NCBI RefSeq assembly: GCF_003122215.1
Contig: NZ_QEYD01000002.1
Coordinates: 124,001 to 188,000 of the forward strand
From: Pararhodobacter marinus
GTDB lineage: Bacteria > Pseudomonadota > Alphaproteobacteria > Rhodobacterales > Rhodobacteraceae
DNA length: 64,000 nt
Reading direction: 5' to 3'
The number at the start of each line of letters is the position of its first letter. The first letter of the stretch is position 1. Positions 16,318-32,028 of this stretch are shown piece after piece. The notes beneath the pieces are model-generated. The model was given only the letters and a program-made list of their open reading frames with translations. It was not told the origin of the DNA and made no database searches. A program made the translations under genes and the position numbers.

Positions 16318-16580
16318 GCGGATCCGAGTATCGGCCACGACTCGCTAACGGAATGGAAACGGGGACCCAACCGACACGGCCGGGGAAGACCGGCGCGTGT
16401 CGCTACTCAGACGTGTGAAAACATGCCGCCATACACGCAGATCGGCGGCGGAAGTTCAAGTCACGACGCTCAGAAACTGATAAATATTTAAGGAGTTATC
16501 GAAACAGTACAGGAGTAACGACAAGGCGTGGACCAGCACGGAAACAACAGGCTATCCGGAAATCAGAACCCCAAAAAGGG
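16318..16580. promoter_or_regulatory. leader region upstream of the FAAL/P450 operon
   Basis: A 263-base gap between the radical SAM gene and the tRNA. It contains a distinctly AT-rich patch around 16478-16500 (GATAAATATTTAAGGAG) in an otherwise GC-rich sequence, so the operon promoter probably lies here on the minus strand. I see no convincing -35/-10 pair and no lux-box-like palindrome. Confidence 0.35.
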
Positions 16581-16670
16581 TGGCGGAGAGACAGGGATTC
16601 GAACCCTGGGTGGGCTCTCACCCACAACGGTTTTCGAGACCGCCCCGTTCGACCGCTCCGGCACCTCTCC
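16581..16670 (-). tRNA. tRNA-Ser (anticodon CGA)
   Basis: Read on the minus strand, the gene starts GGAGAGG at 16670 and ends in an encoded CCA at 16581 (90 bases). The acceptor stem pairs GGAGAGG with TCTCTCC, followed by discriminator G as in serine tRNAs. The anticodon stem-loop GGTCTCGAAAACC gives anticodon CGA. A long variable arm (GTGGGTGAGAGCCCAC) and the T-arm GGGTTCGAATCCC are clear. The isoacceptor reads UCG serine codons. Confidence 0.95.
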
Positions 16671-16800
16671 GCGCTTCGGTGGTCAACGTGGGGGCGATGT
16701 AGCGAATGCGGCGTGCGGGTGCAAGAGGGTTGGGCGCGAAAAATGTGCCCCGGTTCCGGGGCCGGCAAACCGGCGCTGTCCGTGTGCCGCCGCTCCGGGT

Positions 16801-17235
16801 TCAGCCCCCGCGCGGGATGTCGAACCCGGGCGGCGCCAGGGTGAATCCGCTGAACTCGAAGCCCGGCGAAACGGCGCAGGAGACGAGCGTGAATGCGCCC
16901 TCGCTGCGCGCCGATTGCCAATGATCGGCGGGCACGACCAGTTGCGGCGCCTGCCCGGCCTGAAGGTCCGCCCCCAGCAACCGCTCCGAGGCAGGGCCGG
17001 TCTCGTCCCGGCTGATCGACAGGCGCAGCGGTGCGCCCGAATGATAAAGCCAGATTTCGGTCGAATCGACGCGGTGCCAATGCGAAACCTCGCCGGCTTT
17101 CAGCAGGAACAGGATCATCGTGCCCGCCGGCCGTTCGCCTTGCGGCGCATCGGCCCGCCACGTCTCGCGGTAATGCCCGCCTTCGGGATGCGGCTGCAGG
17201 TCAAGGGCGGCGATCAGGGCATCGGCATCGGTCAT
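16801..17235 (-). CDS. cupin family protein (DUF985)
   Basis: A 144-residue protein of the cupin DUF985 family, recognised from HPEGGHYRETWR near the start, the TMILFLLKAGEVSHWHRVDSTEIWLYHSGAPL barrel strand pair with candidate metal ligands H52 and H54, and the LVSCAVSPGFEFSGFTL tail. The start at 17235 (MTDADALIAALDL) is the usual family opening; an upstream in-frame ATG would overlap the ABC gene. Biochemical function is not established for most members; sugar- or nucleotide-linked roles have been proposed. It stands alone between the tRNA and the siderophore importer. Confidence 0.85.
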   Translation of the reverse strand: MTDADALIAALDLQPHPEGGHYRETWRADAPQGERPAGTMILFLLKAGEVSHWHRVDSTEIWLYHSGAPLRLSISRDETGPASERLLGADLQAGQAPQLVVPADHWQSARSEGAFTLVSCAVSPGFEFSGFTLAPPGFDIPRGG

Positions 17236-17276
17236 GGCCGCAGCATGGCCCGGCCCACGGCGCCGCACAAGCCGTG

Positions 17277-18068
17277 TCAGGCGGGCAGGATGACCGACGT
17301 ATCGCCGGCGCGCTCCAGCCGCAGCGGCGTGTCGTAGAGCTCGGACAGCAGATCGGCGGTGATGGTCGTGTCGCGCGGCCCGTGGCTGAGCACCCTGCCG
17401 TCCTTGAGACACACGAACCAGTCGGCATAGCGCCACGCGCTCTGCAGATCGTGCAGGACCAGCAGCACGCTGCGGGTTTCCTCGACGGTGGCGGGCTCGA
17501 CGGGTCTCCGTCCGGGCGGGGGCGCAAGATCACGCAGCCGGTCCATGATGTCGCGGGTATATTTCGGGTCCAGCGCCGAAAGCGGCTCGTCCAGCAGCAT
17601 CCAGGGCGTCGTCTGGGCATAGGCCATGGCGACAAAGGCGCGCTGTTTCTGACCGCCCGACAGCGTTTCGACATCGCGCGCGGCCATGGCGCCCAGGTCG
17701 AAGCGCTCGATCGCCTGCGCAACGATCGCGTGATCCTCGGGCCCCGGCCGGCCTCTGTGATGCGGCCACCGCCCGAAACCCACAAGATCGCGCACGCTGA
17801 GACGCGGCATCGCGCCGGGGCTCTGGGTCAGCAGCGCCAGAAGCCGGGCGCGGTCGCGCGCGGCGATACGGTGAATATCGCGGCCAAGAACGCGCACCTG
17901 ACCGGACGCGGGCGTCAGCAATCCGGCCAGGCAATGCAGAAGCGTCGATTTTCCCGCCCCGTTGGGGCCGATGATCGCGGTGATGCCGCCGCGCGGGATC
18001 TGCAGGCTGATATCGTCCAGGATCGCGAGGCCGTCGCGCGTGAGGGTCAGGTGGTCGATCTCGATCAT
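17277..18068 (-). CDS. iron-siderophore ABC importer, ATP-binding protein
   Basis: A 263-residue FepC-class ATPase. It has Walker A GPNGAGKST (residues 34-42), the signature LSGGQKQRA (136-144), Walker B WMLLDEPLSALD (156-167) and the switch histidine in LVLHD (H206). About ten extra residues (APPPGRRPVEPATVEET) are inserted before the H-loop. The start at 18068 shares ATGA with the stop of the permease gene. It powers the two FecCD-type permeases encoded just upstream. The order binding protein, permease, permease, ATPase matches FatBDCA/YclNOPQ-type importers. Confidence 0.9.
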   Translation of the reverse strand: MIEIDHLTLTRDGLAILDDISLQIPRGGITAIIGPNGAGKSTLLHCLAGLLTPASGQVRVLGRDIHRIAARDRARLLALLTQSPGAMPRLSVRDLVGFGRWPHHRGRPGPEDHAIVAQAIERFDLGAMAARDVETLSGGQKQRAFVAMAYAQTTPWMLLDEPLSALDPKYTRDIMDRLRDLAPPPGRRPVEPATVEETRSVLLVLHDLQSAWRYADWFVCLKDGRVLSHGPRDTTITADLLSELYDTPLRLERAGDTSVILPA

Positions 18069-19009
18069 GGGGCGGGCCTTCTGAGGACGAGCGCAAGAAA
18101 CAACAGCCCGCCCAGGAACTCGACCACCATGCCCAACGCCGATTGCAGCCCGAGAATGCGCTCGAACACGGTCTGCCCCAGAACGAGGATCGTCGCGCCG
18201 ATCACGGCAGCGGCGGGGATCAGCAGGGCGTGGCGGCTGTCGGGCAGGGCCGCTCGGGCAAGGCTGGCGGCCAGGAGCCCCAGGAAGGTCACGGGCCCGA
18301 CCAGCGCGGTGGACACCGCGACCAGTGCAGCGACGAGCCCCAGCCCGGTCAGAACCAGCCTGTCGTGATCGAGCCCCAGCGAGCGCGCTTTGGTCCGTCC
18401 CAATAGCGCCACGTCGAGGCGTGGCGAGAGGCGCCATGCCGCCAGCAGCGCCACGCTCAGCGCCAGCGCCGCGATGCCCAGGTGATCGCGCGGCACAGCA
18501 TTGAAGCTGGCGATGCTGGCCTGTTGCAGGACGGCAAATTCCGACGGGTCGAGCAGTCGTTGCGCGAACCCGGCCAGCCCGCGCAACAGGACGCCCAGGA
18601 TCACGCCGGTCAGAACCATGCGGATGATGTCATCGGCCCCTTTGCGGAAGACCAGCCCGAACAACGCCATCGCGGCGGCGATCAGGCAGCCGGCCTCGAG
18701 TGCAAAGCGCGGCATCGTGGGCAGGGCGGCGAAGCCCGCCGCGCCCAGCGACGCTAAGAGGGCCGTTTGCAGAAACACGAACAACGCGTCGAAGCCGACG
18801 ATGCCGGGCGTAAGCAGGCGATTGGCGACAAGGGTCTGGAAAATCACCGTGGCCGCCCCGCTGGCCGCGCCGACCAGAACCAGGGCGGCCAGCGTTCCTG
18901 CCCTGAGCGACAGGATGAATCCCATGGGCGCGCGCAGGTTCCATAAAAGGAACAGGGCCACCGCCAGCCCCAGCCCGCCCGCCAGCCAGATCAACCGCCG
19001 CTCAGCCAT
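18065..19009 (-). CDS. iron-siderophore ABC importer, FecCD-type permease 2
   Basis: A 314-residue membrane protein with about nine to ten hydrophobic helices. It has the FecCD hallmarks SGAATVIFQTLVANRLLTPGIVGFD near the N-terminus and ALLGRTKARSLGLDHDR, then GPVTFLGLLAASLAR, the stretch that contacts the ATPase. The start at 19009 overlaps the end of the first permease gene by eight bases; an upstream in-frame ATG would give a non-hydrophobic Pro/Ser-rich leader and is rejected. It pairs with permease 1 as a heterodimer in the inner membrane. Confidence 0.9.
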   Translation of the reverse strand: MAERRLIWLAGGLGLAVALFLLWNLRAPMGFILSLRAGTLAALVLVGAASGAATVIFQTLVANRLLTPGIVGFDALFVFLQTALLASLGAAGFAALPTMPRFALEAGCLIAAAMALFGLVFRKGADDIIRMVLTGVILGVLLRGLAGFAQRLLDPSEFAVLQQASIASFNAVPRDHLGIAALALSVALLAAWRLSPRLDVALLGRTKARSLGLDHDRLVLTGLGLVAALVAVSTALVGPVTFLGLLAASLARAALPDSRHALLIPAAAVIGATILVLGQTVFERILGLQSALGMVVEFLGGLLFLALVLRRPAP

Positions 19010-19946
19010 GGGCGCGCGCCTTCCTATTGCCCAGAAGTCCCAGGAAGATCGCGGCACCGGCGATGGCGAAGATCGTCGCGGCGGGGATTTCATAGGGCCA
19101 GCGCACCAGCCGTCCGATCACGTCCGAGGCCAGCACGAAGCCGCCGCCCGCCACCGCGACCAGCCCCAGATTGTCGCGCAGATTGTCGCCCCGGAACCGG
19201 GAGACGATATTGGGTACGACCAGCCCGACGAAGGGCATCGACCCGACCGTCACCACGACGACCGCCACCGCCATGGCGACGATGGCAAGCCCCGCCAACA
19301 CCGTCTGGCGGTAATTCAGGCCCAGCGACCGCGCCTGATCCTCGCCCAGGCCGAGGATCGTCAGCCGGTCGGCGAACAGCCACAGCAAGCCCGCCAGCGC
19401 GGCGATCAGCCACAACAGCTCGTATCGGCCCCGCAGCACGCCCGAGAAATCGCCGGTCTGCCAGATCCCCACGAATTGCACGAGATCGGTGGTCCACGCG
19501 ATGAACAGAGCCGCCGCGCCCAGAATACCGCCATAGATCAAACCGACGATCGGCAAGAGCATCGGATCGTGGCGCGGCACGCGGGTGCTGAGGGCGAAGA
19601 AACCGGCCGTGCCCAGAAGGGCGGCCAGGGCGGCCACCGACATCTTCGTCAGGAGCGCCGCGCCGGGCGCGATCAGCGTCACGCCCAGAAGCCCGATCAT
19701 CGCCGCTTCGGGCGTGCCGGTCAGGCCCGGCTCGACCAGCCGGTTGCGCATGGTCTGCTGGATCACCACGCCCGCCAGCGCCAGACCGGCGCCGGCGAGC
19801 AGCGCCGCCATCGTGCGCGGCAGGCGGCTGACCGCCAGCACCATCGAGCGGTCGAGCGGGCTGTCGAAAAGGTTGGTGGCGCCGGTCAGCAGGCTGGCCA
19901 TGGCCAGAACGGCCAGCGCGATCAGGGCGGGGATCAGGCGGCGCAT
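19002..19946 (-). CDS. iron-siderophore ABC importer, FecCD-type permease 1
   Basis: A 314-residue permease starting MRRLIPALI four bases after the binding-protein gene. FecCD motifs include LPRTMAALLAGAGLALAGV, IQQTMRNRLVEPGLTGTPEAA, LGEDQARSLGLNYR and VGSMPFVGLVVPNIV. About nine hydrophobic helices are visible. It forms the translocation channel with permease 2. The sequence places it in the group that imports Fe-siderophores; the particular siderophore cannot be told, and no siderophore biosynthesis genes are nearby, which suggests use of foreign chelates. Confidence 0.9.
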   Translation of the reverse strand: MRRLIPALIALAVLAMASLLTGATNLFDSPLDRSMVLAVSRLPRTMAALLAGAGLALAGVVIQQTMRNRLVEPGLTGTPEAAMIGLLGVTLIAPGAALLTKMSVAALAALLGTAGFFALSTRVPRHDPMLLPIVGLIYGGILGAAALFIAWTTDLVQFVGIWQTGDFSGVLRGRYELLWLIAALAGLLWLFADRLTILGLGEDQARSLGLNYRQTVLAGLAIVAMAVAVVVVTVGSMPFVGLVVPNIVSRFRGDNLRDNLGLVAVAGGGFVLASDVIGRLVRWPYEIPAATIFAIAGAAIFLGLLGNRKARAHG

Positions 19947-19950
19947 GGGA

Positions 19951-20862
19951 TCAGTCTTGCGCGGCGGCGAAGGCCCCGGCGATCTGGTCCACGATGCGCG
20001 ACATCGCCTGAAGGCCGCCCCCGGCAAGGTAGAGCGCGGCGCTGTCGAGATAGACGATCTGTCCGCGCTGCCCCGCCGTCGTGCCGCCCACCAGCGGGTT
20101 GTCCAGCGTCACTGCCGCTGCCTCGCCCTCTTGCCCGATGGCGGCGGCGCGGTCGATCACCAGAAGCCAGTCGGGATTCACCTCGGCGATATACTCGAAC
20201 GAGACGGCTTCGCCGTGATTCTCGGCGGTGATCCCGGGCGCGGCTTCGGGCAGGTTCAGCGCGCCGTGCAGCCAGCCGAACCGGCTGTCGCCGCCATAGG
20301 CGGACACGGTGCCGCCATTCGTCAGCACGATCAGCGCATCGCCATGGCCGTCGACCATCTCGCGCGCCGTTGCAAGCCGGGCGTCGAACTCCGAAAGCAG
20401 GCTTTCCGCGCGCGCCTGCAGGCCGAAGATCTGTCCGTAGGCGCGCAGCCGCTCGCGGCTCTGGCCCATCACGTCGCCGCTGATCGTCATGTCGAGCGTG
20501 GGCGCAATGCGGCTCAGCGCCGGGACTTGCGGCTGCGAGCGCCCGCCCGCGACGATCAGGTCGGGCCCCAGCACGGCGAGGCTTTCGAAATCGGGTTCGA
20601 ACAGCGTGCCCATGGTGGGAACGCCCGCGAAGGCTGGCGCCAGATAGGCGGGCGGGCGGATCGCCGGGACGCCGTCCAGCGCCACACCCAGCGCCTGCAG
20701 CGAATCGATGGCCGCAAGGTCGAACGCGACCACGCTTCGCGGCGCGAGCGGGGCGCGGGCCGGGCCGGCATAGGTGGGGATCGTGATCTCCTGGGCAAGG
20801 GCCGGAGACCAGGCAGCGACCGGCCACAGGGCCAGCGCCAGCAACGAGAGCAAGGATTTCAT
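19951..20862 (-). CDS. siderophore ABC transporter substrate-binding protein
   Basis: A 303-residue periplasmic binding protein with a clear signal peptide (cleavage after the Ala-rich ALA near residue 23). It belongs to the FatB/YclQ branch of class III binding proteins: VVAFDLAAIDSLQALG in the first lobe, FESLAVLGPDLIVAGGR, the connecting helix, and NPDWLLVIDRAAAIG in the second lobe. First gene of the four-gene importer. Family members bind ferric catecholate or mixed carboxylate siderophores. No Fur, Irr or RirA site is convincingly visible upstream. Confidence 0.88.
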   Translation of the reverse strand: MKSLLSLLALALWPVAAWSPALAQEITIPTYAGPARAPLAPRSVVAFDLAAIDSLQALGVALDGVPAIRPPAYLAPAFAGVPTMGTLFEPDFESLAVLGPDLIVAGGRSQPQVPALSRIAPTLDMTISGDVMGQSRERLRAYGQIFGLQARAESLLSEFDARLATAREMVDGHGDALIVLTNGGTVSAYGGDSRFGWLHGALNLPEAAPGITAENHGEAVSFEYIAEVNPDWLLVIDRAAAIGQEGEAAAVTLDNPLVGGTTAGQRGQIVYLDSAALYLAGGGLQAMSRIVDQIAGAFAAAQD

Positions 20863-20990
20863 CGCGACATCCGTCTGGTGGTACGACCGGGCGCCTGGCT
20901 CTGTATTGCTGAGTGTTTCGGTCAGATTGCGGCCTGGGGTCTACCCGGCTTTGCCAGCCTGCGCAATCGGGGAAAGCGGGGAGGGCGCCC

Positions 20991-21332
20991 TCAACCCTGC
21001 GGGCATTGCTGATGGGCGACGAGCTTCCACGATCCCGCCTGCCGGGCATAGGTCGACGAGCAGAGCGCGACATAGGGGCGGTCCTTGCCGCGATGGCCGG
21101 TGGCGCGGTAGGCCAGCACCATCGTGTCGCCGACGCGGGTTTCCTTGCGGTCGTGGAACTCGACCTCGTCCCAGCGCGGGGCGTCCTTCAGGCTTTCGAG
21201 GATCGCCTCGCCCGACAGGATGCCGGTGGGCGGCGGGAACACCATCAGCGCCTCGCTGGCCATATTGGTCACGTAGCTTGTCGTCCCGTCCAGCCAGAAG
21301 CGCGTCTCCGCATCCCAGAACGATGGCGTCAT
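20991..21332 (-). CDS. small NTF2-like (DUF4440-type) protein
   Basis: A 113-residue protein starting MTPSFWDAETRFWLDG. The pattern of an N-terminal helix ending in a long central Trp/Phe-bearing segment, a middle ILSGEAILESL motif, and C-terminal strands (GDTMVLAYRATGHR, YVALCSSTYARQAGSWKLVAHQQCPQ) is that of the NTF2-like/DUF4440 fold. Such proteins bind or isomerise small hydrophobic molecules or act as ketosteroid-isomerase-like subunits. No catalytic residue can be assigned. It is upstream of the siderophore operon but separated by about 130 bases, so the link is weak. Confidence 0.7.
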   Translation of the reverse strand: MTPSFWDAETRFWLDGTTSYVTNMASEALMVFPPPTGILSGEAILESLKDAPRWDEVEFHDRKETRVGDTMVLAYRATGHRGKDRPYVALCSSTYARQAGSWKLVAHQQCPQG

Positions 21333-21792
21333 GTCGGTCTCCAACCCGGTTAGCTCTGGGGGGCGCGCCACGGCGCGGCACGCTCAGGCCCCGAAAATCA
21401 CCCCGCACACTGGCCCGGTCCCGGGGGAAGTCTCAAGCCCCCGGGGCCGGCCGCCGCCATGCCCGAAGGGATTGCGGGCGCGGCCGACGGGGCGATCCGG
21501 GCCGGAAAACGCAGTGCTGCTTGGCCCGAACGGCCCTGCGCGGATTGCCGCCGATACCGGTCGGATGACTCCCGGGTGCCAGATCCGGGCGCGGCCGGGG
21601 CACGAAATCCGGGGGTGGTCGCCCTGAGCCGGCGTCCTGCGTTGGCGGCGAAAGTGTTGCTGCGGCATCGTCGGGGGCGCCCGGCGGTGAGGGTGAGCGG
21701 GGGTTTCACACCCCCGCACCCCCGTGGAGTATTTGAGGCAAAGTGAAAGGGCGCGGGGGGGGGGAGTGGTCCGGGGAGGAGGCCTGCGAGCA
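21333..21792. other. 460-base intergenic stretch with a hairpin repeat
   Basis: No supported gene. The stretch is GC-rich and carries a copy of an interspersed hairpin element at 21697-21740 (listed separately), downstream of the glutathione transferase gene. Short reading frames here have no family-like features. Confidence 0.5.
21697..21740 (-). repeat. interspersed hairpin element, type B
   Basis: On the minus strand this reads CAAATACTCCACGGGGGTG followed by a perfect hairpin, GCGGGGGT and ACCCCCGC around a five-base loop. A second copy lies at 61436-61476. It is just 3' of the GST gene in the transcribed direction and probably acts as a terminator or mRNA 3'-end structure. Confidence 0.6.
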
Positions 21793-22425
21793 TTACCTTT
21801 CGTCCGGGATCCCGGGCATGGTCGAGAAACCCGGCGTCGCGCGGACCCGGCGCGCCCACAGCCGCAGCGCGGGGAAGGCGTCGTGGTCGAGGCCGAAATC
21901 GCGCGACAGCGCGAAGGGCGCGAACAGCATGAGATCGGCCAGCGTGACCTCGGGGCCGGCCACGAAGCCGAGCCCGTCGAAGCCTTGCAGCGTCAGGTGG
22001 TCGTCGAGCAGACGGAACGCGCGCTTGGCCCGGTCCTTGAGCGCCGCGAGGTCGCCGGGCGCGTCCAGCATCGCCGTCGCCCGCGCCTCCGCCGCGACCC
22101 CCATCTCGCGCGCGGCGAAAGTCATCCAGTCGAGCATCCGCGCGCCGGTGATCGCGTCTTGCGGCAGGAGCGGGTGATCGGGGCAGCGCGTTTCCGCGAG
22201 ATGCAGGATGATCGCCAGCGGCTGCGTCAGGACCAGCGCATCCTCGACCAGCACCGGCAGACGGCCCTGAGGGCTGAGCGCCCGCATCTTGGGGCTCAGA
22301 TGCTTGTGGCCCGGATAAAGGTCGACCTGGCGCAGGTCGAGCGCGATGCCCAGGCAGCCGGCGATCATCCGCACCGTGTAGCAGTCGATGTCGAGATCGT
22401 AATTGTAGAGAACCGCGCCGCTCAT
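21793..22425 (-). CDS. glutathione S-transferase family protein, NdmE-like by context
   Basis: A 210-residue two-domain GST. The thioredoxin-like N-terminal half has the LSPKMRALSPQGRLPVLVEDALVLTQ segment (cis-Pro in RLPVL, then the E/D-ALVLTQ glutathione contact). The helical C-terminal half has GPEVTLADLMLFA with the usual conserved Asp. The start shares ATGA with the stop of the Rieske gene, so the two are translationally coupled. In the Pseudomonas caffeine pathway a GST homolog (NdmE) is a structural bridge in the NdmC-NdmD oxygenase complex; the same gene company here suggests a similar role, which is inferred. Confidence 0.82.
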   Translation of the reverse strand: MSGAVLYNYDLDIDCYTVRMIAGCLGIALDLRQVDLYPGHKHLSPKMRALSPQGRLPVLVEDALVLTQPLAIILHLAETRCPDHPLLPQDAITGARMLDWMTFAAREMGVAAEARATAMLDAPGDLAALKDRAKRAFRLLDDHLTLQGFDGLGFVAGPEVTLADLMLFAPFALSRDFGLDHDAFPALRLWARRVRATPGFSTMPGIPDER

Positions 22426-23081
22426 GCCGCGACCCCGGTGTCGGTTCCGCTTTCAACACTGTCGCGCAGGCGCGTTGCCGCCCGCGCGATCCCGGCGCGG
22501 GCTTCGGCGCCGGGATTCCCGGCGGCGGTGACATGCAGCGCGCATTGCGCCTCGCCGATTTCCTGCAGACCGATCCGCAGCGTGCCCCAGCGGGTGTCGA
22601 GCGTCACCACCGGTCCCCGGGCGGTCATGCCTCCGGCGTCGAAAGCCGAGGGCAGCGCCGCCAGCGCGGTATTGAGCGGCACATCGACATAAAGGCTGCG
22701 CACGCCGGTCGCCTCGGGCAGCACGGGCGCATCGCCCGGCGCGCCGAGGCCGGCCCAGATCATGCCCCCGGCCTCGGCCGCGCCATAGGTCTTCACGCAG
22801 ATGCTTCGCGGCACGTCCAGATCGGGATGCGCGGGGATTTTCCGGCACTGGCCGTCCGGTCCGTATTGCCAGCCGTGGTAGAGGCAGGCGATGTGGTCGC
22901 CGCGCACGACACCGAAGCTCATCTTCATGCCGCGATGCGGGCAGCGGTCTTCCCAGGCATGCGCCTCGCCCGCCTGATCGCGCCAGACCACGATCTCGGT
23001 TCCCTTCACGATCGCGCCCGCCGGGATGCCGGGCGGAATCGACCCGGACAAGGCGAGCGGGAACCAGCCGTTGATGGTCAT
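22422..23081 (-). CDS. stand-alone Rieske [2Fe-2S] protein, electron-transfer partner of a split oxygenase
   Basis: A 219-residue protein. Residues 1-110 are an oxygenase-type Rieske domain with cluster ligands C47 and H49 (CPHRG) and C66 and H69 (CLYHGW). The remaining 110 residues are a small domain without the DxxHxxxxH iron site, so this protein alone cannot be an oxygenase. Start chosen at MTINGWFPLAL, four bases after the upstream stop. It sits between a small acylphosphatase-like gene and the GST gene, divergent from a catalytic subunit that lacks a Rieske domain. The two together complete one oxygenase. Confidence 0.85.
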   Translation of the reverse strand: MTINGWFPLALSGSIPPGIPAGAIVKGTEIVVWRDQAGEAHAWEDRCPHRGMKMSFGVVRGDHIACLYHGWQYGPDGQCRKIPAHPDLDVPRSICVKTYGAAEAGGMIWAGLGAPGDAPVLPEATGVRSLYVDVPLNTALAALPSAFDAGGMTARGPVVTLDTRWGTLRIGLQEIGEAQCALHVTAAGNPGAEARAGIARAATRLRDSVESGTDTGVAA

Positions 23082-23085
23082 CCTG

Positions 23086-23361
23086 TCATCCTTCCTGGCT
23101 GCGCCGCGTCGTCGGGGGCAGGCCATCGTCATGGTGATGCCTGATCGCGCGGATCAGGCTGTCTGCGGGTCCAAGGCTGAGCGCCATCTCGAAGGCGGCG
23201 GTCAGCTCGGTCGGGCCGCTCACGGCGACCAGAAACCGGTCGGGCGCCGATTCGAGTATCTCCAGGCCCAGATCCAGCCGCTGCGCCCGGTGCCGGGCGA
23301 AGGCGTCCATGCTGGCCGGCGTGAGCGTGCCGGTGAATTCCAGAAGGACAGGTTCCGTCAT
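23086..23361 (-). CDS. small acylphosphatase-fold-like protein, first gene of the Rieske operon
   Basis: A 91-residue protein. Its spacing of strands and helices (LLEFTGTLTPASMDAFARHRAQRL, then FLVAVSGPTELTAAFEMALSLGPADSLIRAI) follows the acylphosphatase pattern, especially the SGP...LGPADSLIRAI end. The catalytic GVGFR arginine loop and the Asn motif are not present, so it is probably not an active acylphosphatase. Its stop is four bases from the Rieske gene start, so it belongs to that operon. It could be a chaperone-like or docking subunit. Function unknown; the fold assignment is from pattern only. Confidence 0.55.
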   Translation of the reverse strand: MTEPVLLEFTGTLTPASMDAFARHRAQRLDLGLEILESAPDRFLVAVSGPTELTAAFEMALSLGPADSLIRAIRHHHDDGLPPTTRRSQEG

Positions 23362-23666
23362 GCGGACTCCGATGGCTTTGGGCCGGGCGGGTTTGCTGCA
23401 GTGCGGAAACAGTAAGCGGCGGGAAGCTCTGCCCGTCAAGAGTTGCGTTGGCCGCCGCGTTCGGCGTCGCGCCCCGGCGCCCCGCACGGTTGCGCGGCCG
23501 CCGGGACGATGGGCGATCCCTTCAAGGTTGATCAAATCGTCATCAAAAGCGTACAGCTTGTCGCCGACGGGGCCTGCGCGCGCATCGACATCGGCGCGGC
23601 GCTGGCCGAACATCGCGCGTCGGGGCGTCGGGACCGCGACGCAAAGCCCAAGGCAAGGGGATCGCC
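23362..23666. promoter_or_regulatory. divergent promoter region with palindrome TTGATCAA
   Basis: A 305-base gap between two divergent operons. It contains TTGATCAA at about 23528-23535 in an AT-richer patch, a plausible operator for a regulator controlling both directions. No gene is supported here; a frame running through it has no family features. Confidence 0.3.
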
Positions 23667-24521
23667 ATGGCCGAGAAAGCCGCTCTGGATCAATGGTACT
23701 GCATCGAGAACCTCGCGGATGTGCCGCAGGGGGGAAGCGGGAACCGGTTGCTGGGCGTGGACCTGGCAATCGGGCGCGCGGGCAAGTTGATCTCGGTCTC
23801 GGCGCGGGGCCGGCAATTGCCGGTGCGCCAGCGCTACGGCTATCTGTGGACCTCGCTGGGCGAGCCCGCCGCGTCGGATCCGCCCGCGATTCCCGAAGCC
23901 GACGAATCCGACCGCCGCTACGTTCCCTGCGGCGCGTTCACGGTAAGGACCTCGGGTCTGCGGATCGTCGAGAATTTCCTGGATATGGCGCATTTTCCCT
24001 TCGTCCATACCGATATCCTGGGGTCCGAGCCGCATACCGAGGTCGCGCACTACGATTGCGAGATCCGCCGCGATGTCGACGAGGTCTGGGCCACCAACTG
24101 CACCTTCGTGCAGCCCAGGGCCGCCTTGTCGGCGGGTGGTGCGCTGAAGACCGATTACATGTACCGTATCGCCACGCCCTTCGTGACCGTGCTGTACAAG
24201 ACCTGCCCGATGGCCACCGACCGTTGGGATGTCATCGGGTTGTTCGTTCAGCCGCTCGACCCCGATCGCTGTCGCGCGCATCCGGTGATGTTCCTGATCG
24301 ACGATGCCGCGCGGCTTGCCGATCTGATCGGGTTTCAGCAGACGATCTTCCTGCAGGACCGCATCATTCTCGAGAACCAGCGGCCCGTCCTGTTGCCGCT
24401 TGAACCCCGGGCCGAGATCCCGACGCGCGCCGATGCGTCCTCGGTCGCCTATCGCCGCTGGCTGAAGGAAAAGGGTCTGACCTACGGGACGACGCTGGGC
24501 GAGGGTGCCAGCGCGGCATGA
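23667..24521 (+). CDS. Rieske-type oxygenase catalytic subunit lacking its own Rieske domain
   Basis: A 284-residue protein, 60-70 residues shorter than VanA/NdmA-type oxygenases. The mononuclear iron site is intact: ENFLDMAHFPFVH supplies bridging D106 and ligands H109 and H114 (DxxHxxxxH), and D231 in FLQDRIILENQRP is the likely third ligand. The N-terminus begins like a full oxygenase (DQWYCIENLADVPQG, LLGVDLAI) and then jumps to QRYGYLWTSLGEPA: the CxH/CxxH segment is cleanly missing. NdmC has the same architecture and takes electrons from an extra Rieske domain elsewhere. It is coupled by ATGA to guanine deaminase, which suggests a methylpurine substrate. Confidence 0.85.
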   Translation: MAEKAALDQWYCIENLADVPQGGSGNRLLGVDLAIGRAGKLISVSARGRQLPVRQRYGYLWTSLGEPAASDPPAIPEADESDRRYVPCGAFTVRTSGLRIVENFLDMAHFPFVHTDILGSEPHTEVAHYDCEIRRDVDEVWATNCTFVQPRAALSAGGALKTDYMYRIATPFVTVLYKTCPMATDRWDVIGLFVQPLDPDRCRAHPVMFLIDDAARLADLIGFQQTIFLQDRIILENQRPVLLPLEPRAEIPTRADASSVAYRRWLKEKGLTYGTTLGEGASAA

Positions 24522-25861
24522 ACCTGTCCGGACGGACCCTTGTCGCGCGCGGCTTTCATTGCCCGGACGGAACGCTCGACCCGTTTGCAGAACTCGCCAT
24601 CGAGATCGGCGCGGATGGCGTGATCACGCGCGTGCGCCGGCCTGGCGCGGACGGCTACGCAGTGCCCGCCGATGCGGTCCGCCTGCCCGAAGGCACGCTC
24701 TTGCTGCCCGGCTTCGTCGATCTGCATATCCATGCGCCGCAATATCCGCAGCTGGGCACCGCGCTGGACGAGCCGCTGGAGGTCTGGCTGCAGCGCTACA
24801 CCTTTCCGCTGGAAGCGCGTTATGCCGATCCGGCATTCGCCGAGCGGGTCTATGCGCGGCTGGTGCGCGACCTGCTGGCCTCGGGTACGACCACGGCGCT
24901 CTATTTCGGCACCGTCCATCTGCCCGCAACCCAGCGGCTGGCCGAGCTGTGTCTTGAGCTTGGCCAGCGCGCGCTGGTGGGCAAGGTGGCGATGGACCAC
25001 CCTGAGACTTGCCCGGATTATTACCGCGATGCCAGCGCCGATGACGCCATCGAGGGCACCCGCGCGCTGATCGCGCATATCCGCGCGCTGCCCGGCAATG
25101 ACGGGCGGGTCCAGCCGGTGGTCATGCCGCGTTTCATTCCCGCTTGCACGGATGAGGCGCTGGCAGGTTTGGGCGCGCTGGCTGCCGAGACGGGATGCCG
25201 GGTGCATACCCATGTCTCGGAAAGCGACTGGGAACACGGCCATGTGCTGGAACGCCATGCGATGAGCGATGCCGAGAGCCTCGCGCGCTTCGGCCTGATG
25301 ACGCCGCATTCGGTCCTGGCGCATGGCAATTTCCTGTCGGACAGCGATTTCGCGCTGATGAAGCGGCACCGCGCGGGCGTGGCGCATTGTCCGCTGTCGA
25401 ATGCCTATTTCGCGGGTTCGGTCTTTCCGCTGCGCAAGGCGCTGCGGTCGGGCGTGTCTGTGGGACTGGGCTCGGACATTTCGGGCGGGCCTGCGGGCAC
25501 GATCTGGGAGACCGCCCGCATGGCCGTCACCGCCGCGCGGATGCTGGAGACGGGCGTCGACCCTGCGCTCGCGCCCGAAGCGCGCGGTGGCCGGCCCGGC
25601 GCGCGGATCGACGCGGTGACGGCCTTCCACCTAGCCACGCGGGGCGGGGCCCAAACTTTGGGCCTGCCGGTTGGCGCCTTCGTGCCGGGGATGGCGTTCG
25701 ACGCGATGCTGATCGATCCGTCGGTCGAGGCGGGCACCCTGCGCGCTTTCGACGGCGAGACCGGCATACGGCTGCTTGAGCGGGTGCTCTACGGCACGTC
25801 GAAGCCCAATATCGCGCGGGTCTGGGTGCAGGGGGTGCAGGTCGCGGGGATGGCGAGATAG
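24518..25861 (+). CDS. guaD: guanine deaminase
   Basis: A 447-residue amidohydrolase converting guanine to xanthine and ammonia. It has the guanine-deaminase version of the metal motif, LLPGFVDLHIHAPQYPQLG (about residues 67-85), then THVSES, LAHGNFLSD, HCPLSNAYFAGS and LGSDISGG, which supply the remaining zinc ligands and the catalytic residues. Length is normal. It overlaps the oxygenase catalytic subunit by four bases, so the two products are made together. No xanthine dehydrogenase genes are in the window. The identification is strong. Confidence 0.93.
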   Translation: MNLSGRTLVARGFHCPDGTLDPFAELAIEIGADGVITRVRRPGADGYAVPADAVRLPEGTLLLPGFVDLHIHAPQYPQLGTALDEPLEVWLQRYTFPLEARYADPAFAERVYARLVRDLLASGTTTALYFGTVHLPATQRLAELCLELGQRALVGKVAMDHPETCPDYYRDASADDAIEGTRALIAHIRALPGNDGRVQPVVMPRFIPACTDEALAGLGALAAETGCRVHTHVSESDWEHGHVLERHAMSDAESLARFGLMTPHSVLAHGNFLSDSDFALMKRHRAGVAHCPLSNAYFAGSVFPLRKALRSGVSVGLGSDISGGPAGTIWETARMAVTAARMLETGVDPALAPEARGGRPGARIDAVTAFHLATRGGAQTLGLPVGAFVPGMAFDAMLIDPSVEAGTLRAFDGETGIRLLERVLYGTSKPNIARVWVQGVQVAGMAR

Positions 25862-25942
25862 GCAGAACCGCTTGCCCGGCGCCTTCGGCTTGCTCCGGGC
25901 TAAGGCGCTGATCCTACGCTAGAAACTGGCGCCCCTCCGCGT

Positions 25943-26821
25943 TCAGCCCTTCAACGCCTTCCCAAGCAATCCGCCCGCCGCCTGCAGCCGCGCCTCGGCG
26001 GCCCCGGCATCCAGCCCCAGCGTCAGCATCACCACCGCGCGCTTGATCGTGCCGCCCTCGGCCAGCGCGGTTTCGGCCGCCCCAAGGTCCTCTCCTGTCA
26101 GATCGGCCACCATTGCCACCGCGCGGGCGCGCAGCTTGACGTTGGTGGGCCGCATCTCGACCATCCGGCCCCGGTGGACATAACCCAGCCGGATCATCAC
26201 CCCGGTCGAGAGGCAGTTCAGCAGCACCTTCTGCGCCGTGCCCGCCTTCATCCGGGTCGATCCCGCGATGATCTCGGCGCCGGTTTCGGCCACCAGCGCG
26301 ATCTCGGCGGCCCCGGCCAGGGCGGCCTCGGGCGCGTTCGTCACGGCGAGGGTCAGCGCACCACGCTGCCGCGCATGGGCAATGCCCGCCAGGACGAAGG
26401 GCGTGCGCCCCGAGGCCGCGACGCCGATCACCACATCCGCCGGCGTCAGTCCCAGCGCGTCCAGCGCGTCCGGCGCCTCGCTCTCGCTGTCCTCGGCGCC
26501 TTCGACGGCCTCCGTCACGGCCGTGGGACCGCCCGCCATCAGCGCCACCGCGCGCTCGGGCGGCCAGTCGAAGGTCGGGGGCAGTTCCGCCGCATCCAGC
26601 ACCGCCAGCCGTCCCGAGGTGCCCGCGCCCAGATAGATCAGCCGCCCGCCTTGGCGAAGCCGCGCCGCGCAGGCGTCGATGGCTTTGGCAAGGGCAGGGC
26701 GCGCGGCCCCGGCCGCGGCCACGGCGGCCAGTTGCGTTTCCAGAAGCGCCGCCGCCAGATCGTCCGAGGGCCAGTCCTCGATCCCTGCGAAACGGGGGGC
26801 GGCCTGTTCGGTGCTGCTCAT
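25943..26821 (-). CDS. murQ: N-acetylmuramic acid 6-phosphate etherase MurQ
   Basis: A 292-residue SIS-domain enzyme that removes the lactyl ether from MurNAc-6-phosphate, giving GlcNAc-6-phosphate. Diagnostic segments are GGRLIYLGAGTSGRLAVLDAAELPPTF, the GGPTAVTEAVEGAEDSE loop carrying the catalytic acid, VVIGVAASGRTPFV, and GSTRMKAGTAQK. The start at 26821 shares ATGA with the stop of the kinase gene. It works in peptidoglycan recycling, taking the phosphosugar produced by the neighbouring kinase or by a PTS. Confidence 0.93.
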   Translation of the reverse strand: MSSTEQAAPRFAGIEDWPSDDLAAALLETQLAAVAAAGAARPALAKAIDACAARLRQGGRLIYLGAGTSGRLAVLDAAELPPTFDWPPERAVALMAGGPTAVTEAVEGAEDSESEAPDALDALGLTPADVVIGVAASGRTPFVLAGIAHARQRGALTLAVTNAPEAALAGAAEIALVAETGAEIIAGSTRMKAGTAQKVLLNCLSTGVMIRLGYVHRGRMVEMRPTNVKLRARAVAMVADLTGEDLGAAETALAEGGTIKRAVVMLTLGLDAGAAEARLQAAGGLLGKALKG

Positions 26822-27693
26822 GCGAAAGCCTCCTGCGCCAGTCGCGCCGCCGTCAGCGCGGCGTCGGGTTGCGGATAACACAGCGTGATGCCGGGTGTCC
26901 CGGCTTCGAGCGCGGCGCGTATGTCGGGATGCAGCGACAACACGCCGCCGATCACCGCGACCGGCGCCGCCCCCGCCCGCGCGACCAGGATCCGCGCCAG
27001 CCGTGCCAGTTCCTCGCCCGCGCGCCGCATCAGTTCCAGGGCCAGCGGATCGCCCGCCATTGCGGCCTGGGCCACGGGCTGCGCCAGCCGCCCGATGGCG
27101 CCCCGATCCGCGCCATAGACCGCGCGGCGCGTGGCCTCCCAGTCGCTGCCGCCCATCGCTGCGGCAAGCGTGCGGGCCAGCGTTTCGGCGCCCTCGGGTT
27201 TGCCGGACTCGTCGATCCGCCGCCACAGCGCGTCCAGCGCCCTGAGCGCGATCCACGCGCCCGACCCGGCATCGTCGATCAGCGTTCCGCGCCCGCCGAT
27301 CAGCAGCGTTTCGCCCTGCATCGTGAACCCGACCGAGCCGGTGCCCGAGGCGACCAGATGCCCGCCGCCCTTGGGCCAGCAGGCCCGCCACGCCAGAACC
27401 ATGTCGTTGACGACGCGAATTTTTTCCTCAGGCAGACCCAGCGCGCGGGCGATCAGGCGGCGCAAGTCGGGATCGTCCGCAAAACCCGCGCCGGTGACGC
27501 CCAGATAGGCGCCGTCGACCGGCCCCTGCGCGCGGAGCGGCGCCAGCGCGGCGTGGAGCGCGGCGCGCCCGGCGGCATCGAAAGCCAGCCCGCTCGCGCC
27601 CGGTGTCTCGCCGCGCGAGACGACCTTGCCGCCCGTTTCGACCAGCGCCCACCGTGTGGCGGTTCCGCCCATATCCACCCCGAGCCAGCGCAT
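26818..27693 (-). CDS. BadF/BcrA-type sugar kinase (MurNAc/GlcNAc kinase-like)
   Basis: A 291-residue member of the BadF/BcrA ATPase family of amino-sugar kinases. The actin-like fold is shown by phosphate-1 loop LGVDMGGTATRWAL at the start, VNDMVLAW, the phosphate-2 loop ASGTGSVGF, and the adenosine segment VAVIGGVLSL. It is coupled to murQ, so it probably makes MurNAc-6-phosphate from MurNAc (as MurK does) or phosphorylates GlcNAc. The exact sugar cannot be read from sequence. Length is normal for the family. Confidence 0.82.
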   Translation of the reverse strand: MRWLGVDMGGTATRWALVETGGKVVSRGETPGASGLAFDAAGRAALHAALAPLRAQGPVDGAYLGVTGAGFADDPDLRRLIARALGLPEEKIRVVNDMVLAWRACWPKGGGHLVASGTGSVGFTMQGETLLIGGRGTLIDDAGSGAWIALRALDALWRRIDESGKPEGAETLARTLAAAMGGSDWEATRRAVYGADRGAIGRLAQPVAQAAMAGDPLALELMRRAGEELARLARILVARAGAAPVAVIGGVLSLHPDIRAALEAGTPGITLCYPQPDAALTAARLAQEAFA

Positions 27694-27774
27694 CGTCGTC
27701 CCCGTTTGTTCGCCGCGACCCTAGCGGGCGCCGCCGGGGGGGTCAAAGGGGGACGCGCGGGATCCGCGCCGGGA

Positions 27775-28788
27775 TCAGGGACCGGGGTCGAGCGCCGCGA
27801 CCACGGCACCGTTCAGCACCGCGCGAACCAGATCGGGTTGCCCGCGGGTCCCGGTCTGCGCGAAGGTCTTCTTGGACGTGCTGCGCGCGGTCTCGATCGT
27901 CCAGCCCAGCCGTTCCGCCGCCTCGGCCAGCGAAAAGCCGTCGCAGATCAGCGCCGTCAGCCGCGCCTCGCTCCGGCTGAGGCCAAGGCCCCGCGCCAAT
28001 GCGCCAGCGTCGCGCCCGGCGATCCCGGGCATCTGCCGCAGCACCGCACAAAGGCAGGGCTCCAGCCCCGGCGCGGGCACGGAAAGGCCCGGCAGGATCG
28101 CCATCCGGGTCGGCGGATGCTCGGCCAGCGTCACCCCATGCGGCCCCGCGTCACCCGCCGCCGCCCGCTCAAGGGCCCGGCGAAAGGCGCGGCCGGTGAC
28201 CGGATTTCCCGCCTCAAGCCGCCCGCCCGGCGCCAGCCGCAGCGCACCGCTCCCGGCCAGCAGGGCGCGCGCGGTCTCGCTGGCCTCGACCACGCGCCCG
28301 GTCGTGTCGAGCCACAGCCATCCCGCGCCCAGCCGTCGCGCCAGCGCGTCGGCCTGTGCCTGCCGCGCGCGCGCGGTGCCGCTGTCGAGCCAGATCTCGA
28401 TCGCCTGTTCCAGATAGGGCGCGATACGGCCCAGCAGGACGCTGTCCACCGCGCGGAAATCGGTGAAGGGATGCCACAGGCAGAGCCAGCCGCGAAGGCC
28501 GGGCTGCGGATCGACACGAATGACCCGCAGCATCCCCTCCTGCGCGTCGAATTCGTCCTGCGCATAGACCCGCGAATGCCGCAGTGTTTCCAGCCGGGCC
28601 TGCGCGGGCAGGGGGGCCGCGTCCCCAAGGCGGTGGACCACGCCGCGCGCCTCGATCCGCAGGGCCACGGCGCGCGCCCGCGTCATCCCGCCCAGAAGCG
28701 GCAGGCTTTGCGCCCAGTCGCCCCCCGCCGCGCGGGCATCGGCATAGAGGAACCGCAGGATTTCGACGTCATTCGCCTGTTGCAGCAT
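27775..28788 (-). CDS. LuxR-family transcriptional regulator
   Basis: A 337-residue regulator. The C-terminal 65 residues form a LuxR-type helix-turn-helix ([40 protein letters not shown]). The upstream 270 residues look like a PAS/GAF-type sensing region with a [22 protein letters not shown] segment, and no receiver or autoinducer domain. The start [11 protein letters not shown] at 28788 is preferred; a longer frame upstream would run through the cysD leader. Target genes are unknown; cysD and the murQ operon flank it on either side. Confidence 0.78.
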
Positions 28789-28816
28789 CGGCGGATCCCG
28801 GCCATTTCGCAATGAG

Positions 28817-28832
28817 CCCCCCATATGGGGGG
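28817..28832. promoter_or_regulatory. 16-bp perfect palindrome between luxR-type gene and cysD
   Basis: CCCCCCATATGGGGGG is a perfect inverted repeat in the 115-base gap between the divergent regulator and cysD genes. It could be an operator for the regulator or a hairpin in a leader transcript. Function inferred from position only. Confidence 0.35.
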
Positions 28833-28903
28833 TGAAACCCGGCTTAGCGCTTGCTATCTGCCCCGGCAATGCAAAACACATGCGAACTGACAAGGAAGCG
28901 GGA

Positions 28904-29809
28904 ATGTCCGTGAAAACCCTGACCCACCTGCAACGCCTGGAAGCCGAGAGCATCCACATCATGCGCGAGGTCGTCTCGGAAGCGCAGAAGCCGGTGATGC
29001 TGTATTCCGTCGGCAAGGACAGCGCGGTGATGCTGCATCTGGCCAAGAAGGCCTTCTATCCCTCGCCGCCGCCCTTCCCGCTGCTCCATGTCGATACGAC
29101 CTGGAAATTCCAGGAGATGTACAAGCTGCGCGACAAGGCCGCCAAGGAAGCGGGCATGGAGCTGCTGGTCTACCAGAACCCCGAGGCGAAAGAGAAGGGG
29201 ATCAACCCGTTCGACCACGGCTCGCTGCACACCGACATGTGGAAGACCGAGGGGCTGAAGCAGGCGCTCGACAAGTACGGCTTCGATGCGGCCTTCGGCG
29301 GCGCGCGCCGCGACGAGGAGAAATCGCGCGCGAAAGAGCGCGTGTTCTCGTTCCGCTCGGCCAATCACCGCTGGGATCCGAAGAACCAGCGCCCGGAACT
29401 CTGGCGGCTCTACAACGCGCGCAAGAACAAGGGCGAGTCGATGCGCGTCTTCCCGATCTCGAACTGGACCGAGCTGGATATCTGGCAATACATCCATCTC
29501 GAAGGGATCGAGATCGTGCCGCTCTATTTCAGCGCGCCGCGTCCGACCGTCACCCGCGACGGGCTTCTGCTGATGGTCGACGACCACCGCTTTCCGCTTA
29601 ACCCGGGCGAAGAGCCGGTGATGCGCTCGGTGCGCTTCCGCACGCTGGGATGCTACCCGCTGACCGGCGCGGTCGAAAGCAACGCCACCACGCTGCCCGA
29701 GGTGATCCAGGAAATGCTGCTGACCACCACGTCCGAGCGTCAGGGCCGCGCCATCGACCACGATCAGGCCGCCTCGATGGAGAAGAAGAAGCAGGAAGGT
29801 TATTTCTGA
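28904..29809 (+). CDS. cysD: sulfate adenylyltransferase subunit 2 CysD
   Basis: A 301-residue ATP-PPase that makes APS from sulfate and ATP, driven by CysN GTPase. Visible are the PP-loop [16 protein letters not shown] (near residue 33), [10 protein letters not shown], the [14 protein letters not shown] segment, and [13 protein letters not shown]. Normal length. Start 28904 has AAGGAAGCGGG just before it; an upstream ATG (28832) lies inside the palindrome region and is rejected. It is followed 49 bases later by cysNC, completing sulfate activation. Confidence 0.97.
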
Positions 29810-29858
29810 GCCGCCGCCTTTTCGCCAAGACTTTCAACACCCTCTGAGGTGAACCGAC

Positions 29859-31760
29859 ATGACCGATCCGATTTACAAGACCGACGCGCTGATCGCGCAG
29901 GACATCGACGCCTATCTGGAAACCCATCAGCACAAGACCATGCTGCGCTTCATCACCTGCGGGTCGGTGGATGACGGCAAGTCGACGCTGATCGGCCGCC
30001 TGCTGTACGATTCGAAGATGATCTTCGAAGACCAGCTGGCGGCGCTGGAAGCGGATTCCAAACGCGTCGGCACGCAGGGGCAGGAGATCGACTTCGCGCT
30101 CCTGGTCGACGGCCTCGCCGCCGAGCGCGAGCAGGGCATCACCATCGACGTGGCCTACCGCTTCTTCGCCACCGAAAAGCGCAAGTTCATCGTCGCCGAC
30201 ACGCCGGGACACGAGCAATACACCCGCAACATGGTGACCGGCGCCTCGACCGCCGATCTGGCCGTGATCCTGATCGACGCGCGCAAGGGCGTGCTGACCC
30301 AGACCCGGCGCCACAGCTACCTGGTCAACCTGCTGGGCATCAAGAACATCGTGCTGGCGGTGAACAAGATGGACCTCGTGGGCTACGATCAGGCGGTCTT
30401 CGACGCGATCGTCGCCGATTACAGCGCCTTCGCCGCGTCTATCGGGATCGAAAGCTTCACGCCGATGCCGATCTCGGGCTTCAAGGGCGACAACATCACC
30501 GCGCCCAGCGAGAACACGCCGTGGTATACCGGCCCCTCGCTGCTGCCCTTCCTCGAAACGGTCGAACTCGACACCACGGCGGATCAGCGCAAGCCCTTCC
30601 GCATGCCGGTGCAATGGGTCAACCGCCCCAACCTGGACTTCCGCGGCTTCTCGGGCCTGATCGCCGACGGCGTCGTGCGTCCGGGCGACGAGGTGCGGGT
30701 GCTGCCATCGGGCAAGACCTCGACCGTGTCGCGCATCGTGGCGCTGGGCGGCGATCTGGAGGCGGGCGTGGCCGGGGAATCGGTGACGATCACGCTGGCC
30801 GACGAAATCGACTGCTCGCGCGGGCAGGTGATCGTCGCGGCGAAATCGCCGCTCGAAGTGTCGGACCAGTTCGAAGCCTCGGTCATCTGGATGGACGAGC
30901 ACGAAATGGTGCCGGGCCGCGCCTACTGGATGAAGATCGGTGCACAGACCGTCTCGGCCTCGATCGGCGCGCCGAAATACGAGGTCAACGTCAACACCCA
31001 GGAGCACCTGGCAGCGAAGACGCTCGATCTCAATTCGATCGGCGTGGCGAATATCACCACCGACCGCGAGATCCCCTTCGCGCCCTATGCCGACAGCCGC
31101 GATCTGGGCGGGTTCATCCTGATCGACAAGATGACCAATGCCACCGTGGCGGCGGGCATCATCCACTTCTCGCTGCGCCGTGCCCAGAACATCCACTGGC
31201 AGGCGACCGACATCACGCGTGAACACCATGCCAGCATGAAGCACCAGAAGCCGGCGGTGGTCTGGCTGACCGGGCTTTCTGGATCGGGCAAGTCGACCAT
31301 CGCCAACGCGCTCGAGAAAAAGCTGGCACGGATGAACCGGCATACCTTCCTGCTCGACGGCGACAATGTGCGTCACGGGCTGAACAAGGATCTGGGCTTC
31401 ACCGAGGCCGACCGAGTCGAGAACGTGCGCCGGGTGGGCGAAGTGGCGAAGCTGATGACCGATGCGGGGCTGATCGTGGTCACCGCCTTCATCTCGCCCT
31501 TCCGTTCGGAACGCGACATGGTGCGCGGCATGATGCAGCCCGGCGAATTCGTCGAGGTCTTCGTCGACACGCCGCTCAGCGTGGCCGAGGAGCGCGATGT
31601 GAAAGGGCTCTACGCCAAGGCGCGTTCGGGGCAGCTGAAGAACTTCACGGGCATCGACAGCCCCTACGAGGCACCCGACAGCCCCGAGATCCGCATCGAC
31701 ACCACGTCGATGACGCCCGACGAGGCCGCCGACATCATCATCGCCCGCCTGATCCCCTGA
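29859..31760 (+). CDS. cysNC: bifunctional sulfate adenylyltransferase subunit 1 / APS kinase (CysN-CysC fusion)
   Basis: A 633-residue fusion. Residues 1-450 are the CysN GTPase: [11 protein letters not shown]-loop at 34-43, [18 protein letters not shown]. From about residue 460 follows APS kinase with [12 protein letters not shown] and the [18 protein letters not shown] motif and FVDTPL. Such NodQ-like fusions are common in alphaproteobacteria. The protein with CysD makes APS and then phosphorylates it to PAPS, for assimilation or sulfation. A T-rich stretch after a strong hairpin ends the operon (see next site). Confidence 0.96.
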
Positions 31761-31782
31761 TCGGGCAGGCGAACCGTCCGGC

Positions 31783-31866: not shown

Positions 31867-32028
31867 CCGGCCTTGCCCGGGCGGCGGGAACACGGCGCTG
31901 CTGCGGTTGCTGAACAGACGGGCAGGGCGGGCGGAAATCTTGGTTCTGCCGCGGAAATTCCGCATTCGCGCTGGCATGATGCGTCTCGCCCCCTATGGTG
32001 GGAGAGCACACAGCGACAAGGGCCCCGC

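Follow-up and report, generated by a model that had tools for sequence, protein, structure and literature searches.

A split Rieske oxygenase module with a second guanine deaminase in Pararhodobacter marinus: a candidate N-demethylase of methylated guanine

The closest described relative of the module reported here is NdmCDE, the 7-methylxanthine N7-demethylase of Pseudomonas putida CBB5. In this system NdmC lacks a Rieske cluster, the cluster having moved onto NdmD, and a glutathione S-transferase (GST)-like protein is needed (PMC4408171). The same source describes the activity on 7-methylxanthine, terms the complex very unique among Rieske oxygenases, tells of ndm genes restoring the growth of an E. 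coli guanine auxotroph on caffeine and counts 18 organisms, mostly Sinorhizobium and Mesorhizobium, with ndmCDE-like clusters of unassigned function. According to a 2026 paper (PMC13237722) the structure of the complex is still unsolved. Two further Rieske purine N-demethylases, NdmA and NdmB (methylxanthine N1- and N3-demethylases; structures 6ick and 6icl), are full-length proteins with a Rieske cluster of their own; HpxD is likewise a purine-linked Rieske oxygenase (PMC7373994), full-length and hydroxylating a ring carbon. Here we describe a five-gene module from the alphaproteobacterium Pararhodobacter marinus, found in a stretch of 64,000 nucleotides (nt) of contig NZ_QEYD01000002.1 (positions 124,001 to 188,000), which we call the window.

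The module shares with NdmCDE a Rieske-less catalytic subunit, a separate Rieske protein, a GST-like third protein and the purine context. It differs in that NdmD fuses its Rieske part to a reductase (588 amino acids, aa), whereas the Rieske protein of the window stands alone; it also adds an acylphosphatase-like protein and a guanine deaminase, and has no reductase nearby. Because its Rieske protein is not fused to a reductase, we filed the module as a variant and not as NdmCDE. A plasmid cluster of P. putida MT178 (L142; the loci compared carry L numbers) contains full-length oxygenases matching NdmB 6icl (E-value 9.5e-236) and NdmA 6ick (1.1e-229), and the Rieske-less subunit beside these genes was therefore named NdmC. 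The catalytic subunit of the window is 44% identical to it over 280 columns (E-value 3e-79); the Rieske partner is 34% identical to the N-terminus of the L142 NdmD over 161 columns, and the GST-like protein is 32% identical to the L142 NdmE. The likeness to NdmC, NdmD and NdmE proposed in the initial annotation of this DNA holds as homology, both in this direct comparison of clusters and in the tree described below. NdmA and NdmB share the catalytic domain and the iron site with the window subunit, though they are far more distant from it.

The catalytic protein matches Pfam families VanA_C (and KshA_C). Its iron-site residues D106, H109, H114 and D231 are invariant in all 14 aligned rows, and it has no CxH...CxxH motif: the core of the Rieske cluster is gone and its flanking strands are retained. 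Relatives keep the same pattern, the called catalytic subunits having DxxHxxxxH in 103/103 cases and the Rieske motif in 0/103. Searched by sequence against solved structures, the subunit matches SxtDIOX (3.2e-24) and SxtT (1.1e-23), and then NdmB (1e-9) and NdmA (1.1e-6). An aromatic ring hydroxylase was ruled out by these best solved matches and by the purine neighbours of relatives described below; closest homologues of that kind, full-length and without link to purines, were what the initial annotation had named as speaking against its proposal.

The Rieske partner (Pfam: Rieske) holds the sole Rieske domain detected in the window, joined to a truncated oxygenase-type domain without an iron site. 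In an alignment of 37 partners (the window's and 36 others, hand-picked from 47 of suitable length) the Rieske motif is present in 37/37 sequences and DxxHxxxxH in 0/37. By sequence the partner has the same best solved matches as the catalytic half, SxtT and SxtDIOX, and aligns with their N-terminal portion, the two halves of the window pair covering separate parts of a single chain; these enzymes differ in being single full-length chains that act, by their entry titles, on saxitoxin-type alkaloids and not on purines. An AlphaFold model of the partner (predicted local distance difference test, pLDDT, 93.9) has SxtT and GxtA/SxtDIOX (6wn3, 6wnc) as its best Foldseek matches. In the top 20 rows of the fold comparison 207-216 of the 219 partner residues align with full-length enzymes; free Rieske ferredoxins align at residues 3-113 only. 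Judged by its model, the partner is a shrunken, iron-less Rieske oxygenase, an identification new in this analysis. Rieske oxygenases normally carry the Rieske cluster and the mononuclear iron in one alpha subunit; here the two sites are split over two proteins, which look like reciprocally decayed copies. That the partner is a decayed oxygenase hints at why, in structural terms, the enzyme came to be split, and the two half-enzymes probably depend on each other.

The genes form two divergent operons (Table 1), the minus-strand one running from the small protein through the Rieske partner to the GST-like protein, and the other containing the catalytic gene and the guanine deaminase. The initial annotation had drawn the same picture: a catalytic gene with DxxHxxxxH and without a Rieske motif, coupled by ATGA to the deaminase, and a divergent Rieske gene without an iron site, coupled to a GST gene. 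We found each of these frames and overlaps in place. The module is not a chance set of frames, since all five genes were recovered by codon-based gene calling (51 genes called in the window) and the complementary motif loss is kept in relatives. The region between the operons presumably holds the promoters of both. No Rfam family reached the cut-off there, four sub-threshold matches being taken as chance, and riboswitch control of the window operon was rejected.

Table 1. Features of the split Rieske module in the window (positions are those of the window)
Feature	Position	Strand	Remarks
Catalytic subunit, NdmC-type	23667-24521	+	284 aa; iron site D106xxH109xxxxH114 + D231
Guanine deaminase paralogue, predicted second and divergent copy	24518-25861	+	447 aa; start overlaps catalytic stop as ATGA
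Rieske partner	22422-23081	-	219 aa from ATG 23081; CPH...CLYH
GST-like protein, NdmE-type	21793-22425	-	210 aa; 4 nt shared with Rieske gene
Small acylphosphatase-like protein	23086-23361	-	91 aa; 4 nt upstream of Rieske gene
Intergenic region between the divergent operons	23362-23666	.	305 bp

The catalytic family extends well beyond NdmC. We built a tree from 72 catalytic domains, 60 Rieske-less and 12 full-length, with one annotated HpxD as the chosen outgroup; bootstrap values of this tree were still unsettled, and some of its long branches join one another. All 60 Rieske-less subunits fall into one clade (100/100) with NdmC inside, and the window subunit groups with NdmC and not with HpxD. 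The window belongs to a 32-row subgroup (95/94) that includes a 13-row subgroup A' (100/100); an 18-row subgroup B is separate (100/99). On this placement NdmCDE would be one branch of a larger family, and the Sinorhizobium and Mesorhizobium ndmCDE-like clusters have catalytic subunits of the same family as the window's. Among the 295 genomes of the bacterial family searched, 91 have a match at E-value 0.001, and 23 places in 21 genomes (the window's included) reach 7.4e-61; the next match (3.5e-22) is a piece of L060 (G124:C53), a broken module copy with in-frame stops within the catalytic gene. Sampled across the whole class, 385 genomes gave 9 with a match at 1e-40, that of the window among them. 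By record titles the relatives include rhizobia, roseobacters and acetic acid bacteria.

Gene neighbourhoods of these relatives point to purines. Two sets of loci were compared, one of 22 (the loci of the 21 family genomes plus L060, window included) and one of the best 80 named loci among at least 571 confirmed relatives, with 20 controls, ordinary Rieske oxygenase loci hand-picked from the family-genome match list and not random. Neighbours were counted by tblastn, which replaced gene-call counts (15/22, 54/80 and 1/20) because the gene caller had missed genes (in L047 and L060). A purine deaminase or a BMP-type transporter lies near 17/22 loci, 57/80 of the best named loci and 1/20 controls (Fisher values 1.5e-6 and 4.9e-8, indicative only, as the loci share ancestry). 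The one positive control, L146, has a BMP-type transporter, and its oxygenase is among the nearest full-length relatives listed. In the 22-locus set we found a GST in 21, the small protein in 17, an F8 or F10 deaminase in 14 and a BMP-type transporter in 14; the best 80 named loci have a GST in 72 and the small protein in 56, and the controls have neither (0/20 each). The Rieske partner was counted by gene calls (16/22 loci and 65/80 best named), since its tblastn search is unspecific, with 17/20 controls matching. One gene cluster that occurs in 22/80 best named loci includes an adenine-deaminase-like protein; the one member tested, cut by the locus end, scored 185 against 472.5. Taken with the homology to NdmCDE, these neighbourhoods suggest that the module very probably acts on purines.

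The deaminase of the window, an amidohydrolase by Pfam, falls just under the cut-off of TIGR02967 (372.6 bits, cut-off 375.4) and matches human guanine deaminase 2uz9 at E-value 1.9e-62. The genome has another guanine deaminase above that cut-off (529.1 bits). The window protein shares only 31% identity with this copy but 56-80% with 11 copies linked to modules, and is thus predicted to be a second guanine deaminase, dedicated to the module. A guanine deaminase stands immediately after the catalytic gene in 4/22 loci and 11/80 best named loci. Elsewhere the genome encodes a canonical xanthine dehydrogenase (1215.9 bits, cut-off 849.5), which adjoins a BMP-type transporter of its own.

The two accessory proteins of the minus-strand operon are of different kinds. 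The GST-like gene product has GST domains in Pfam. The small protein has no Pfam match itself; in its family PF00708 (Acylphosphatase) matches 25 of 36 members (E-values up to 1, best 1.1e-8), the window member not among them. The family profile finds solved acylphosphatases (1ulr, 1.3e-5), and the model of the window protein (pLDDT 89.6, predicted template modelling score 0.76) shows a beta-alpha-beta-beta-alpha-beta order; by profile searches and model the protein belongs to the acylphosphatase fold family, an assignment absent from the initial annotation. At the two positions that we take to be the catalytic Arg and Asn sites, located by family alignment, the window has Asp and Glu, and the family has Arg in 3/36 and Asn in 0/36 members; the protein is acylphosphatase-like and devoid of the catalytic residues. 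Where the reductase is fused, as in the six loci L057, L058 and L141-L144, the best match to the small protein reaches only E-value 0.022. As it is also missing from some loci without a fused reductase (L051, L055 and L093), the link between the two is a loose one.

Reductase genes of these modules come in three layouts. The Rieske part is fused to the reductase in L142, L143, L141, L057 and L058; in Variovorax L144 (8986-10800) the catalytic subunit is fused to the reductase and the Rieske protein is free, the reverse of NdmD; in others, such as the window, no reductase is nearby. The initial annotation had pointed to this gap, and among the 51 called genes of the window we found no match to an NdmD-like reductase. 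Across 102 module loci (the window taken as 16001-32000) the reductase part of NdmD matches only L057 and L058. The best match in the window's own genome (G000:C25:320333-321214) has an E-value of 1e-45; because its cluster reads, as we presume, as a dimethylamine monooxygenase, it is a candidate donor at most.

Evidence on the reaction comes from one-carbon (C1) genes, which beside some relatives speak for demethylation, and from the active site. A cluster on pSymA of Sinorhizobium meliloti 1021 (L141:1976-12374) has three Rieske-less catalytic paralogues with one NdmD and one NdmE. Unlike the window, it combines an NdmD-type fusion and several catalytic paralogues with a transporter and C1 genes; a small acylphosphatase-like gene was searched for there and none was found. 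The transporter resembles that of L059, with 50-55% identity in the ATPase and permeases; its binding protein matches F7 at 29%. The C1 genes encode FrmA, an S-(hydroxymethyl)glutathione dehydrogenase (588.1 bits, cut-off 543.95), serine hydroxymethyltransferase (406.4, cut-off 335) and PurU (319.3, cut-off 286.0); a GcvT-like protein is under all cut-offs. Other C1 neighbours are two GcvT-like genes in L059 and PurU in L044. GcvT-like matches of 29-32% in L057, L061, L083 and L128 may be unrelated; 0/20 controls match at that cut-off. Using the formaldehyde genes frmA and fghA from the ndm cluster to test for demethylation was abandoned, as they have no match at the modules; FrmA appeared solely on reading the S. 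meliloti cluster.

Two substitutions in the active site of NdmA reportedly shift its action from the N1 to the N3 position (PMC8055839). NdmA 6ick and its QL mutant 6icp differ at N282Q and F286L. The corresponding residues of the window subunit are Q224 and F228, and the two NdmC sequences likewise have Gln and Phe; subgroup A' has Glu in place of Gln at the first position in 7/7 sequences checked. Glu236 was also considered as a guanine-recognition residue (Ile/Leu in the two NdmC) and was dropped, NdmA and NdmB also having Glu.

Taking this evidence together, we give slightly better than an even chance to reading the five genes as a split Rieske non-heme iron N-demethylase of methylated guanine with its follow-on deaminase. 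The module probably acts by N-demethylation, and methylated guanine, with 7-methylguanine as first choice, is our best single guess for the substrate. RNA turnover releases 7-methylguanine, and in ordinary Rieske oxygenase trimers electrons cross between neighbouring subunits. In the proposed complex an unlinked reductase would feed electrons into the [2Fe-2S] cluster of the partner, from where they would cross the subunit interface to the iron of the catalytic subunit. The iron-oxygen species would hydroxylate the N-bound methyl of its substrate, for which 7-methylguanine derived from RNA turnover is the likeliest methylated guanine; the carbinol would collapse to formaldehyde and guanine. 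The coupled deaminase would turn guanine into xanthine for the xanthine dehydrogenase of the genome. The GST-like protein may clasp the two halves, as proposed for NdmE, and the acylphosphatase-like protein is probably an extra structural or docking subunit. Of the initial interpretation, the NdmCDE-like split enzyme, the purine context and the reductase located elsewhere are supported; methylated guanine is a candidate substrate that fits the second deaminase and the two NdmC-like pocket letters.

Several observations weigh against this reading. In sequence comparisons alone the C-terminal region of the partner gives a weak signal (hhalign probability 12%), and no dedicated reductase was found for the window module. 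FrmA and FghA of the ndm cluster have no match beside any of the 101 other module loci, and none of seven C1 query proteins has one in window positions 16001-32000; the only FrmA/FghA match in the window is an alcohol dehydrogenase (54761-55843, 37%), far from the module. The S. meliloti cluster and NdmC lie in a different subgroup from the window, and their own grouping is weak (88/59). Neither a deaminase nor a transporter was found in 5/22 and 23/80 loci (13 of the 23 being A' clusters), and no BMP-type transporter gene lies beside the module in the window itself. Moreover, F8 is an 8-oxoguanine deaminase-like family (two tested: 580.6 bits, over, and 391.4 bits, under the cut-off of 532), and its presence beside 9/22 loci and 32/80 best named loci would equally suit a guanine C8-hydroxylase.

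These F8 neighbours are the main argument for a purine ring-carbon hydroxylase, which would convert guanine to 8-oxoguanine at C8 or take hypoxanthine or xanthine in the manner of HpxD, with deaminases either using its product or supplying its substrate; HpxD/HpxE are reported as oxidising hypoxanthine and xanthine (PMC7373994). We consider such an enzyme unlikely, though a serious contender: the window subunit is an NdmC homologue, the one annotated HpxD used is a full-length protein that shares 28% identity with a family member and falls outside the fully supported Rieske-less clade, C1-handling genes stand beside some relatives, and the genome has a xanthine dehydrogenase already. The NdmC letters at both pocket positions examined, and the action of NdmCDE itself on 7-methylxanthine (PMC4408171), would suit N7-demethylation of 7-methylxanthine or plant methylxanthines, with the guanine deaminase either unrelated or first converting 7-methylguanine to 7-methylxanthine. 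That full-length Rieske oxygenases resembling NdmA or NdmB are missing from the window, that the ATGA partner is a guanine enzyme and not a xanthine enzyme, and that many of the listed organisms were judged to be without an obvious caffeine source make this rather improbable in our estimate.

A different N-substituent or position (N1-, N2- or N9-methylguanine, or larger alkyl groups) has its support in subgroup A', whose Glu at the NdmA-282 position and whose neighbouring aldehyde dehydrogenase, GMC oxidoreductase and sulfopyruvate-decarboxylase-like genes imply that substrates within the family probably differ. For the window we rate it as distinctly improbable, as the window is outside A', has Gln and lacks the A' neighbours. 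Finally, the two halves might not be one enzyme at all, the Rieske protein being a free ferredoxin that serves other oxygenases and the catalytic gene a decaying copy; the divergent genes of the window and the broken catalytic gene of L060 would agree with that. It is nevertheless very unlikely in view of the complementary motif loss between the halves, the full-length alignment of the Rieske model with oxygenases, where free ferredoxins cover one part only, and the shared direction of the Rieske, catalytic and GST genes in 12/22 loci and 20/80 best named loci.

The A' clusters themselves (21/80 best named loci by gene calls; e.g. L041:2-7674, L042:9323-18161 and L091:3914-14029) encode a further catalytic subunit of the Rieske-less type together with a GMC oxidoreductase, an amidohydrolase and sulfopyruvate-decarboxylase-like subunits; most also encode an aldehyde dehydrogenase and a xanthine-dehydrogenase-like protein in fused form. 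Their substrate may be a purine carrying a bulkier side chain. Xanthine (NMT1) riboswitches lie by A' clusters at L042:19743-19801, L112:9596-9647 and L091:14775-14824, upstream of genes for 2-oxoglutarate-oxygenase-like proteins (L042 and L112) and an apparent ABC binding protein (L091). Among 27 sources scanned these three alone gave a match; five of the 27 hold an A' cluster, the remaining two (L041 and L124) being without the riboswitch. Full-length oxygenases near NdmA, NdmB and SxtT (E-values ~1e-30 to 1e-37) adjoin the split module in L056 (4647-5699) and L059 (3981-4997). Elsewhere in the window, minus-strand positions 59802-59993 and 3706-3833 match the Ruegeria small RNA families Cis52 and Cis8 above cut-off.

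Among the openly licensed papers searched we found none joining 7-methylguanine and Rieske, none joining 8-oxoguanine deaminase and Rieske, and none uniting 7-methylguanine, demethylase, bacterial and purine catabolism; others may exist beyond them. On a broader scale we tentatively suggest, with more doubt than confidence, a widespread alphaproteobacterial guild of split Rieske enzymes that salvage methylated purines from RNA turnover. In such a guild a homo-oligomer would have become an obligate hetero-oligomer by reciprocal decay of duplicates, with the cluster lost from one and the iron from its counterpart, and the GST-like scaffold with a dead acylphosphatase would replace the tethered reductase by an interface for general donors; the window enzyme would make guanine from 7-methylguanine for its own deaminase. 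If 7-methylguanine is indeed the substrate, the locus would give a route for a methylated base from RNA turnover and may let bacteria recycle methylated guanine.

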